DNA of 64,000 nt from NCBI GenBank assembly GCA_029881255.1, contig JAOUMY010000015.1, positions 1 to 64,000 of the forward strand, in the 5' to 3' direction. Origin of the DNA: Gammaproteobacteria bacterium (lineage in GTDB: Bacteria; Pseudomonadota; Gammaproteobacteria; S012-40). The notes beneath the pieces are model-generated. The model saw nothing but the letters and a program-made list of their open reading frames with translations, was not told the DNA's origin and did not search any database. Positions 27,635 to 30,893 of this stretch are shown piece by piece; within the stretch, counting starts at the first letter, position 1, and every line of letters begins with the position of its first letter. The position numbers and the translations under genes were made by a program.

Positions 27635-28804
27635 TCAAAGCCCTCGCGATAGATCCTCTTTGATATCTTCAATATCTTCCAGCCCGACCGCCACCCTCAA
27701 CAATCCATCAGAGATTCCGGCGCTGGCTCGTTGCTCATCACTCAATCGTCCATGCGTCGTTGTGGCCGGATGGGTAATCGTCGTTTTCGCGTCACCCAGG
27801 TTGGCAGTTATGGAAACCATTTGCGTCCCGTCGACGAGCTTCCACGCCTGCGTTTTATCCGCAAGTTCAAAAGAAAGAATACCACCAAACCCAGATTGCT
27901 GTCTGGCTGCCAGTTGATGTTGCGGATGGCTTTCGAGGCCCGGGTAGAACACACGTTTTACCTGAGGCAAGGATTCCAGCCACTGAGCGAGTTTAAGCGC
28001 CGATTCACTATGCGCTTTCATGCGCAACCGCAGCGTCTCCAGGCCCTTTAGGAAAACCCATGCATTGAAGGGACTCATGCTTGGACCTCCTGTGCGTACA
28101 AAGCCGAAAACGTCCTGCCCGACGACTTCTTCGGTACCAATAATTGCGCCCCCCAGACATCGCCCTTGCCCATCAATGTACTTTGTCGCGGAATGAATAA
28201 TGATATCGGCGCCAAGCTTCAGAGGTTGCTGTAACGCAGGAGTACAAAAACAGTTGTCCACTACCAAAAGACAACCATGTTTGTGCGCAATGCCTGCCAA
28301 TGACTCAATGTCAGCAATCTCGGTCAATGGATTGGACGGTGTTTCCAGAAACAGGAAACGGGTATTAGGCTTGATCGCCGCTTCCCATTCGTCAAGATTG
28401 GTCTGAGATACATAAGTGATTTCGACGCCAAACTTGGCAATGAAATTATTGAACAATACCGTCGTCGATCCAAAAATCGCACGCGAGGAAATTATGTGAT
28501 CACCTGCCTTCAACAGACCGTAGCAAGTCGTCATGATAGCCGCCATACCCGAGGCCGTCGCGACGCAACGTTCTCCGCCTTCAAGTGTTGCGAGACGCTG
28601 CTCGAATGTGCGCACGGTTGGATTGGTAAATCGTGAATAGATATTTCCCGGCTCCTCACCAGAAAATCGTGCCGCCGCCTGCGCGGCCGAATCATAGACA
28701 TAGCTGGAGGTAAAAAATACCGGTTCTGAGTGCTCTTGCTCAGCTGTTCGCTGTATGCCCGCACGCACCGCCGCCGTATCGAATCGCAAATCTTTGTCTT
28801 TCAT
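27635..28804 (-). CDS. metZ: O-succinylhomoserine sulfhydrylase
   Basis: 389 residues, a PLP enzyme of the Cys/Met metabolism family. Present are YSRFTNPTVRTFEQRLA, the TASGMAAI block, VVDNCFCTPALQQPL, and the PLP lysine in SATKYIDGQGR, which is more typical of MetZ than of MetB or MetY. It makes homocysteine directly from O-succinylhomoserine and sulfide. AAGGA precedes the ATG. The gene follows a leader containing a SAM-II-like riboswitch and a terminator, so it should be shut off when SAM is abundant. Confidence 0.93.
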   Translation of the reverse strand: MKDKDLRFDTAAVRAGIQRTAEQEHSEPVFFTSSYVYDSAAQAAARFSGEEPGNIYSRFTNPTVRTFEQRLATLEGGERCVATASGMAAIMTTCYGLLKAGDHIISSRAIFGSTTVLFNNFIAKFGVEITYVSQTNLDEWEAAIKPNTRFLFLETPSNPLTEIADIESLAGIAHKHGCLLVVDNCFCTPALQQPLKLGADIIIHSATKYIDGQGRCLGGAIIGTEEVVGQDVFGFVRTGGPSMSPFNAWVFLKGLETLRLRMKAHSESALKLAQWLESLPQVKRVFYPGLESHPQHQLAARQQSGFGGILSFELADKTQAWKLVDGTQMVSITANLGDAKTTITHPATTTHGRLSDEQRASAGISDGLLRVAVGLEDIEDIKEDLSRGL

Positions 28805-28834
28805 GGCTGTTTCCTTAAGTCGTTCGACGGGCGC

Positions 28835-28868
28835 AAAAAAACCCGCTTAGCACATGCTAAAGCAGGTT
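28835..28868 (-). terminator. Intrinsic terminator of the metZ leader
   Basis: Read on the minus strand, ACCTGCTTTAGCA pairs with TGCTAAGCGGGT across a tiny loop, with one bulged T and one mismatched pair, followed by seven Ts (28841-28835). It lies between the riboswitch aptamer and the metZ start, so it is the likely expression platform. Confidence 0.85.
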
Positions 28869-28871
28869 CGC

Positions 28872-28928
28872 TCCGCTTTAGCCGTATTTATTACGCGCCC
28901 GCAAGCTGTTAGATCAAATCGGCGCGAA
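28872..28928 (-). promoter_or_regulatory. SAM-II (SAM-alpha) riboswitch upstream of metZ
   Basis: On the minus strand, CGCGCC (28926-28921) pairs with GGCGCG (28899-28894) to give P1, with GATTTGATC as the start of the loop. After P1 comes TAATAAATACGGCTAAAG, matching the conserved 3' side (UGAUAAAU-GCUAAA) of the SAM-II class; the loop and this 3' part would form the H-type pseudoknot that binds SAM. It is directly followed by a terminator and then metZ, a methionine gene, as expected for this class. Its 5' end is only about 10 bases after the mnmC stop. SAM-II is best known from alphaproteobacteria. Based on pattern matching, not a covariance model. Confidence 0.85.
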
Positions 28929-28937
28929 GACGAAACA

Positions 28938-30893
28938 TTAGCCTGAGGGACCTCTCTTGTCAACCTCGCCGGGACGCTTTCTTTTTAGACGTCGGATAAG
29001 AAATCTGGCGCTGTGTAATTGCGTAAGATGAGTGCGGGATAAACACCGAGGCGTGTCCTCAATCGTATCGGCGATTAATTCCGCCGATGCAACCGCGTTG
29101 GTCAGACCATGGGAACCGTGCCCGACATTGAGATAGAGGCCTGGGAGATATTGTGCGCTTAGATATAGTCTTGCAGGTCGTCCGTGATATAGATCATCGT
29201 AGCTGCGCCTATAGAAGGCGGGGTCATATACTGCCGAGACGATAGGCAAATGGTCGCGCGTCGCTGCACGAAATGCTGTTCGCCCGCCAGTAATATTGGC
29301 ATCAATTTCATGCCCGACTAGCTCGGAAACGCTGTCGAGATTGTGCTGATGATCACTTTCGCGCACGCTTTTGTCGCTATCTCCAGGTTGGAATGTGGCA
29401 CCTAGTATGTTCGCGCCATTGTGAATCGGAAGAATATAGGCATTTGCATTCAAGGGGCGTTTCAGCCCGATTAATTCCGATGACTCAACATAACTGAGTT
29501 GCCCGCGAACCGTATGCAGACTTAGTTCGTGGTGTGGTAATAATCGGTTTGCATCGACAGCGTTAGTCAATATTACATGTGATGAGGTCCAACTGTGCGT
29601 TGCTGAGCGCAACAGCCACGCATCCTCTTGAAACGCCAGGGATTCAATTTGTTGCATAGGTTCAACGCAAATGTGTTCGGAATACAAATCCAGTAGTTCG
29701 CGACAAAGCTTTTGAGGATTCAACATACCGGCTTGCGGAAAAAACACAGCGCTTGCCAAAAGTTGCAAACCGCTCATTTCCGCAATCTCGTGCTTATCTA
29801 TAGCCTGCATAAACAAACGATTGATAACGCTCCAGTCAAAACGTTGCAGTTCGGCGATCTGTAATACACCACTGGCTTGCCATGCATCATATGCTTGGTA
29901 AAAGGCGCTGGCTTGCAGAAAAGCGGCTGTATTAAACGTCGACCAGGAATGCACACCACTGCCCAAATGTGGCGCCACCAAGCCAAGCGGATTTCCAGAC
30001 CCTTCTTGTGCCACCGCCGCATTGCGTTCGATCAAAGTCACTTTCCAACCGCGACTCGCCAGGCTAAAAGCATTTAACACCCCAGCAATCCCTGCTCCTA
30101 CAACAATTGCTTGTTTGTCACCTGAAAACGCGTCTGGAGGACAAAACCATGGTTGCTCATCCGGTGTCTTTTGTTCTCCAGTAAAACTCCCCCTCAACAT
30201 CTCACGCTTGGCACCATAGCCAGAAAACTTTTCGACCGCAAAGCCGACGTTTTGTAAGCCTCTGCGAACGAACCCGGCGGCGGTAAACGTGGCGAACGTC
30301 GTTCCTGTTTTACTGTGACGAGCAATTTCACTAAACAAGTCATCATTCCACATACCCGGATTCTTTGAGGGTGCAAATCCATCCAGATACCAGGCATCTG
30401 CCTTTCCCTGCATTTCCGGTAACAAATCCTTTACATCACCTAGACACAGCGTAAGAACCACTCTATTGCCATATAGATAGAGCCTGTGCATACCCGCCAG
30501 CAAGGGCGGATAACGATCGAGCAATTCTTCACTGAGCTCGCCCAGATCAGCCCAATGTGCGTGTATTTTTTGGAGGTCCTCGCGACGAAAGAGGTGTTTT
30601 TCGAAACTGACATAGTGCAGGCGTTGATCAGGGCGGCTCTCCCTCAACCACAGTTGCGCCGTGGCGAGAAAATTCAATCCGGTTCCAAACCCGGTCTCAG
30701 CAATGACGAAACGCTCTCTGCCTTGCCAACGCTGCGGTAATCCATTCTGCCGAATGAATACATAGTGGCTCTCCTCAAACCCGCCTTCACGCGCAAAGTA
30801 ATGATCGCCATAGCGATCAGAGTATGGATGCGCATCCTGAAAAGTTAATTCAGCTGGTTCTAAGTTCAGGTCAAGTTCATTGTTTTTTCTCAT
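28938..30893 (-). CDS. mnmC: Bifunctional tRNA 5-methylaminomethyl-2-thiouridine biosynthesis protein MnmC
   Basis: 651 residues, the fused two-domain form. Residues 1-240 are the SAM-dependent methyltransferase, with AETGFGTGLNFLA and DAWYLDGFAPSKNPGMW. From about 262 the FAD oxidoreductase begins at AIVVGAGIAGVLNAFSLA. It converts carboxymethylaminomethyl-U34 of certain tRNAs to the methylaminomethyl form: the C-terminal domain removes the carboxymethyl group and the N-terminal domain then methylates. The stop lies 10 bases from the metZ riboswitch, so the metZ promoter must lie inside the 3' part of this gene unless the two are co-transcribed. Confidence 0.95.
   Translation of the reverse strand: MRKNNELDLNLEPAELTFQDAHPYSDRYGDHYFAREGGFEESHYVFIRQNGLPQRWQGRERFVIAETGFGTGLNFLATAQLWLRESRPDQRLHYVSFEKHLFRREDLQKIHAHWADLGELSEELLDRYPPLLAGMHRLYLYGNRVVLTLCLGDVKDLLPEMQGKADAWYLDGFAPSKNPGMWNDDLFSEIARHSKTGTTFATFTAAGFVRRGLQNVGFAVEKFSGYGAKREMLRGSFTGEQKTPDEQPWFCPPDAFSGDKQAIVVGAGIAGVLNAFSLASRGWKVTLIERNAAVAQEGSGNPLGLVAPHLGSGVHSWSTFNTAAFLQASAFYQAYDAWQASGVLQIAELQRFDWSVINRLFMQAIDKHEIAEMSGLQLLASAVFFPQAGMLNPQKLCRELLDLYSEHICVEPMQQIESLAFQEDAWLLRSATHSWTSSHVILTNAVDANRLLPHHELSLHTVRGQLSYVESSELIGLKRPLNANAYILPIHNGANILGATFQPGDSDKSVRESDHQHNLDSVSELVGHEIDANITGGRTAFRAATRDHLPIVSAVYDPAFYRRSYDDLYHGRPARLYLSAQYLPGLYLNVGHGSHGLTNAVASAELIADTIEDTPRCLSRTHLTQLHSARFLIRRLKRKRPGEVDKRGPSG

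Follow-up and report, generated by a model that had tools for sequence, protein, structure and literature searches.

A SAM-II riboswitch leader predicted to attenuate transcription of metZ in a gammaproteobacterium

The narrow gap between mnmC and metZ in a 64,000-nucleotide stretch of gammaproteobacterial DNA (the window) raises the question of whether it encodes an RNA that ties methionine synthesis to the level of SAM and, if so, how such an RNA would act on metZ. An earlier note on this DNA had read a SAM-II aptamer there, beginning about 10 bases past the mnmC stop codon. The two flanking gene products were identified with NCBIfam (MnmC, 649 bits; MetZ, NF006003, 701 bits against a cut-off of 522), and 11 bases separate the mnmC stop codon from helix P1, in keeping with that spacing. 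The features of the locus, in the order in which they are read along the minus strand, are as follows.

28938–30893, minus strand: mnmC, identified with NCBIfam, with its stop codon at 28940–28938
28958–28963, minus strand: −35 hexamer TTGACA of the predicted metZ promoter, within the 3′ end of mnmC, from the comparative footprint
28935–28940, minus strand: −10 hexamer TAATGT, after a 17-nt spacer, overlapping the mnmC stop codon
28857–28935, minus strand: match to the Rfam SAM-II family (SAM_alpha, RF00521), 37.6 bits by cmscan
28926–28921 and 28899–28894, minus strand: the two sides of helix P1, CGCGCC/GGCGCG, which with its loop spans 28894–28926
28920–28915, minus strand: GAUUUG, the start of the P1 loop, from the sequence
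28908 and 28905–28901, minus strand: 5′ side of pseudoknot P2, C plus CUUGC, pairing with 28882–28874
28874–28882, minus strand: 3′ side of pseudoknot P2, GCUAAAGCG, from the alignment of 83 leaders
28882–28876, minus strand: GCUAAAG, from the sequence
28882–28873, minus strand: 5′ strand of the putative antiterminator, GCUAAAGCGG, overlapping the 3′ side of P2
28856–28866, minus strand: 5′ arm of the terminator, CCUGCUUUAGC, also the 3′ strand of the putative antiterminator (10-bp pairing with 28882–28873)
28842–28851, minus strand: 3′ arm of the terminator, GCUAAGCGGG, from the hairpin energy and the z-score of the region
28866–28842, minus strand: terminator hairpin CCUGCUUUAGC/GCUAAGCGGG, with a one-base bulge
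28841–28835, minus strand: U7 tract of the intrinsic terminator, from the sequence
28810–28816, minus strand: Shine–Dalgarno-like AAGGAAA of metZ, 3′ of the terminator and outside the pseudoknot, from the sequence
27635–28804, minus strand: metZ, encoding O-succinylhomoserine sulfhydrylase (NF006003), the putatively regulated gene, with its ATG at 28804

The RF00521 match is complete (model positions 1–79) and is the sole SAM-II match in its genome. Its score lies just 1.6 bits above the gathering threshold of 36, with an E value of 6.8e-5 over the whole 64-kb window and 4.2e-7 over a 401-base region, and this full-length match bears out the identification of the aptamer as SAM-II. The match ends 53 bases before the metZ start on the same strand, and its first bases lie 5′ of the predicted transcription start. 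A covariance model trained on gammaproteobacterial leaders (R1), this one among them, scores the window leader at 73.1 bits (E = 5.7e-19); R1 also detects SAM-II loci from other classes of the same phylum, absent from its training set, at 19.6 to 51 bits. The leader shares with RF00521 the P1 helix, the GAUUU loop start, the CUUGC/GC(U)AA(A)G pseudoknot core, an A-rich 3′ loop, a terminator and a methionine synthesis gene downstream; on the minus strand, an AAAU loop can be read between CUUGC and GCUAAAG. The SAM-V class resembles SAM-II in its core but lacks the last 3′ pairing element (PMC2704228), and the SAM-V model gave no match in 28700–29100 even at E values of up to 1.

An alignment of 83 distinct gammaproteobacterial leaders revealed an almost fixed core, GCGCCGAUUUGA...CAGCUUGCGGGCGC...AAAU.C.GCUAAAGCG. 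Helix P1 is paired in 97% of cells, with two-sided changes in four of its six pairs, and its covariation score was reached by none of 500 shuffles. In P2, the four core pairs, the C–G pair 28908/28874 and the unpaired U of GCUAA are invariant; because this core never varies, covariation cannot test P2, and the P1 loop of the window leader is complementary to its 3′ GCUAA segment, consistent with an H-type pseudoknot. Outward of this core, P2a in the window consists of the single pair C28908–G28874, compared with one to three pairs in gammaproteobacterial relatives and about 3–6 bp in other classes. Judged as simple complementarity, P2a of the gammaproteobacterial leaders is no better than in shuffles. 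However, when the register of the other classes is applied, the next pair is U–A or U–G in 60 of the 83 leaders and C–G in four more, and the notion that P2a is absent was dropped, given that the C–G pair is invariant and its U–A or U–G neighbour forms in most leaders; the alignment indicates that P2a is shortened in this form. For the whole leader, the minimum-energy fold does not surpass those of shuffles (z = −0.96); a pseudoknotted RNA with two states would be expected to behave in this way, and the fold was given no weight as evidence.

The earlier note had also argued that the metZ promoter must sit inside mnmC, and a conserved promoter footprint does overlap the end of that gene, covering its last codons and stop. 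TTGAC is present at −42 to −34 from the GCGCC of P1 in 57 of 83 distinct leaders; a wider range of positions raises this to 61 of 83, whereas shuffles give 2.0 on average. TANNNT follows at a spacing of 16–18 in 52 of the 57 leaders that have the −35, against a background of about 3%. The −10 of the window is weak, matching TATAAT at three of six positions, which is why a generic promoter scan is blind to it and called no promoter at the window leader. Since the distance between promoter and P1 is constant in relatives whatever the upstream gene, the aptamer would begin almost at +1, and the transcription start is predicted near 28928, two bases 5′ of P1.

The match to the MnmC profile stops at residue 638 of the 651 in the protein, and the 13 codons beyond it hold the metZ −35. 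Among all loci examined, sequence encoding MnmC lies directly upstream on the same strand only in the window and in one member of its family (G002). In that relative (L097), about 150 bases lie between the mnmC stop and P1, and the protein ends near the equivalent of ...RLKRK, close to where the extra tail of the window's MnmC begins. The mnmC gene of the window is best read as extended by 10–13 codons beyond the usual end of the gene, so that it reaches into the metZ promoter, and this extension would account for the tight gap between mnmC and P1. The C-terminal tail, KRPGEVDKRGPSG (10–13 residues; 28941–28979), lies beyond the profile, is absent from the closest relative and is encoded by the metZ promoter region.

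Past the aptamer, the strong terminator with its U7 tract and the metZ gene are both found as had been proposed. Folding of the terminator region yields −21.8 kcal/mol (z = −2.7), a value matched by 1 of 200 shuffles; the hairpin was not called by a simple terminator scan of the window, probably because of its one-base bulge. Ten pairs are possible between GCUAAAGCGG (28882–28873) and CCUGCUUUAGC (28866–28856), and the resulting antiterminator, at −13.1 kcal/mol, compares with −14.8 kcal/mol for the terminator hairpin. In simulated folds of the growing chain, in which the pseudoknot is ignored, the antiterminator is the best structure while the RNA is about 72 to 84 nt long and gives way to the terminator after the 3′ arm of the latter emerges, an order that fits a kinetic choice set by SAM.

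Conservation of this alternative pairing was assessed in the 72 leaders with a T-run, the other 11 of the 83 having no recognisable one. Of these, 54 retain the octamer GCUUUAGC with no more than one mismatch, compared with 3.3 mismatches on average in shuffles. The longest stretch over which the aptamer strand is complementary to the terminator segment has a mean of 7.7 nt (4.3 in shuffles); the antiterminator arm was found by similarity to the exact complement, and the arm-by-arm comparison is therefore partly circular. In five leaders (L041, L087, L096, L106 and L119), much of the conserved octamer lies within the terminator loop, where the terminator needs none of it. This placement is the best evidence for an antiterminator, because the aptamer strand itself cannot vary. 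These observations suggest that GCUAAAGCGG and CCUGCUUUAGC can pair as a conserved antiterminator.

The sequence thus holds an aptamer match, a conserved P1 and P2 core, a terminator, complementarity for an antiterminator and a conserved promoter. From it we infer SAM binding, the direction of the switch and termination in the cell, and the SAM-II riboswitch very probably acts on metZ as a transcriptional OFF switch. RNA polymerase would start at the conserved promoter overlapping the end of mnmC, giving an RNA whose 5′ end lies a few bases 5′ of P1. When SAM is bound, pseudoknot P2 (CUUGC with GCUAAAG) would be held and the antiterminator could not form; the 5′ arm of the terminator would then be free for its 3′ arm, and transcription would end at the U-tract near 28835. 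Without SAM, GCUAAAGCGG would pair with CCUGCUUUAGC once the latter is transcribed, and the 10-bp antiterminator would let polymerase enter metZ, such that low SAM is proposed to raise homocysteine and methionine synthesis. The SAM feedback on methionine synthesis that the earlier note had envisaged is supported as a reading, along with the identities of aptamer, terminator and metZ. A close parallel is metZ of Sinorhizobium meliloti, at which a SAM-II riboswitch is predicted to terminate transcription and the terminated sRNA RZ is up under high-SAM conditions (PMC9373788). The two cases are alike in aptamer class, gene and predicted SAM-induced terminator; S. meliloti, where the experiments were made, is an alphaproteobacterium.

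Three other readings of the locus were weighed against this one. The aptamer could be real and yet act mainly on translation, in the style of the compact Sargasso Sea SAM-II riboswitches, with the SAM-bound pseudoknot blocking the ribosome site and the hairpin being incidental. Riboswitches of that design have been described (PMC9373788), and the 11 leaders without a T-run would suit it, but in the window the Shine–Dalgarno sequence at 28816–28810 lies about 60 bases past the pseudoknot, after a strong terminator, and the terminator arm is matched to the aptamer strand across the class; we regard mainly translational control as improbable. It is also quite improbable that the hairpin is a constitutive terminator insulating mnmC from metZ and that the aptamer-like sequence is a degenerate remnant. 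Although a score near the Rfam threshold and the tight gap to mnmC speak for this reading, the window retains the conserved core bases in a form typical of the 83 leaders, the leader is found with metZ behind other upstream sequences, and a constitutive terminator would silence metZ, given that the promoter lies 5′ of the hairpin.

That there is no riboswitch at all, and that the model was matched by chance, has a negligible probability. The small excess of the score over the threshold is what would favour it; the E value over the window, the correct strand and position before metZ, and the dozens of divergent genomes that combine this leader with metZ speak against it, and the comparative data already refute it. 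The SAM-II attenuator remains the preferred reading: judged by its sequence, the window leader is a genuine, well-formed SAM-II element that very probably attenuates metZ transcription, of a known kind and common in its lineage.

The earlier note had considered SAM-II worth recording in a gammaproteobacterium, an expectation that the distribution does not sustain. RF00521 matches (E ≤ 0.001 per genome) occur in about a third of the genomes sampled across the class (118 of 369) and in 42 of 114 relatives, the window's own genome included. A motif search of the 80 nearest metZ loci with named records located the leader in 38, a count that excludes one false pattern match (L056) and includes a locus whose aptamer lies further upstream (L055). 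Within the window's family, G001–G005 and G008 each combine a SAM-II match with a metZ match of nearly full length, and R1 places the leader beside metZ in G001, G003 and G008; G006 has neither match, and G007 has a metZ match from residue 52 and no SAM-II match. SAM-II was reported in 2009 to be most common in Alpha-, Beta- and Gammaproteobacteria (PMC2704228), whereas a 2014 survey saw SAM_alpha only in Rhizobiales and Rhodobacterales (PMC4239095). This discrepancy arises at least partly because gammaproteobacterial leaders score low: they reach 26–48 bits with RF00521, compared with mostly about 46–88 for same-phylum loci of other classes, the high-scoring ones presumably alphaproteobacterial, and only 11 of the 38 named, pattern-positive leaders attain the RF00521 threshold. 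The low scores follow from a nearly fixed GCGCC/GGCGC core in P1 and a P2a of 1–3 bp at most, the two respects in which the gammaproteobacterial form departs from RF00521. One further metZ leader (L048, 2859–2892) has a partial aptamer match, 27.3 bits to the gammaproteobacterial model over model positions 4–37, and is possibly a diverged SAM-II.

A metZ-family gene lies downstream of 72 of the 83 leaders. Others, named by eye from their N-terminal sequences, are metK (L093, L098, L116 and L128), a MetN-like ABC ATPase gene (L095) and metF-like genes (L099 and L125).

Tandem SAM-II aptamers were observed in some gammaproteobacterial genomes (L183/L203, L184/L202, L186, L197/L201 and L204–L208), one of which, G257, has five such pairs. 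A terminator-like hairpin follows the first aptamer, and the second lies closer to the start codon. The genes behind these pairs are not recognisable as methionine genes; defence-system and Pfam scans identified only a MoxR-type AAA ATPase and an HD domain, several of the proteins having no Pfam match. A tandem SAM-II/SAM-V arrangement is known. Unlike the first aptamer, the second in L201, L205, L206 and L208 apparently has scope for a longer P2a, for example, CAAC/GUUG flanking CUUGC/GCUAAAGC, and a GAUUUAA loop start; the two aptamers of these pairs may differ in SAM affinity.

The leader also bears on two RNA families described separately. On the plus strand, opposite the leader, window positions 28836–28960 give a sub-threshold match to RF02424 (Bp2_287, also Bp2_Cand287_SIPHT). 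Of the 42 RF02424 matches across the class, 29 coincide with a SAM-II match on the complementary strand. The SAM-II motif is present opposite 19 of the 20 RF02424 loci that were fetched (L181–L198 and L200), in some cases at places unreported by the SAM-II search; none of the gammaproteobacterial matches reaches RF02424's own threshold. On this class-wide pattern, a chance overlap was rejected. In Burkholderia and relatives the family sits 5′ of metX or metZ, its authors having remarked on the methionine genes downstream (PMC3521395), and its gammaproteobacterial matches are the SAM-II leader read on the opposite strand. Its annotation is that of an sRNA encoded on the other strand, and the available part of PMC3521395 draws no link to SAM-II. 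These data, strong but indirect, are most simply explained if the 'Burkholderia sRNA' RF02424 is a SAM-II riboswitch modelled on the wrong strand, which is what it looks like. By its description, the leader also resembles the metXZ RNA element of betaproteobacteria, a pseudoknot (regions 1–4 and 2–6) followed by a terminator 5′ of metX or metZ (Leyn et al. 2014, PMC4239095), although that element was presented as new and distinct from SAM_alpha. On balance, we lean towards a coherent gamma- and betaproteobacterial SAM-II subtype, with a shortened P2a and an antiterminator drawn from the aptamer's own ligand-binding strand, which is largely missed at the SAM_alpha threshold, has been modelled on the wrong strand as RF02424 and probably corresponds to the betaproteobacterial metXZ element.

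Elsewhere in the window's genome, no MetX match was found, and a MetA-family protein scores below its family cut-off. An SAH riboswitch (RF01057, 50.4 bits) was observed between genes read as metK and ahcY (L129, about 1501–1617; G000:C11:13332–13448). This genome, in which no MetJ match was found, very likely controls homocysteine synthesis through an RNA sensor of SAM. More widely, SAM-II attenuators appear to be a common means of metZ control in Gammaproteobacteria, most of which annotation at the Rfam threshold overlooks.
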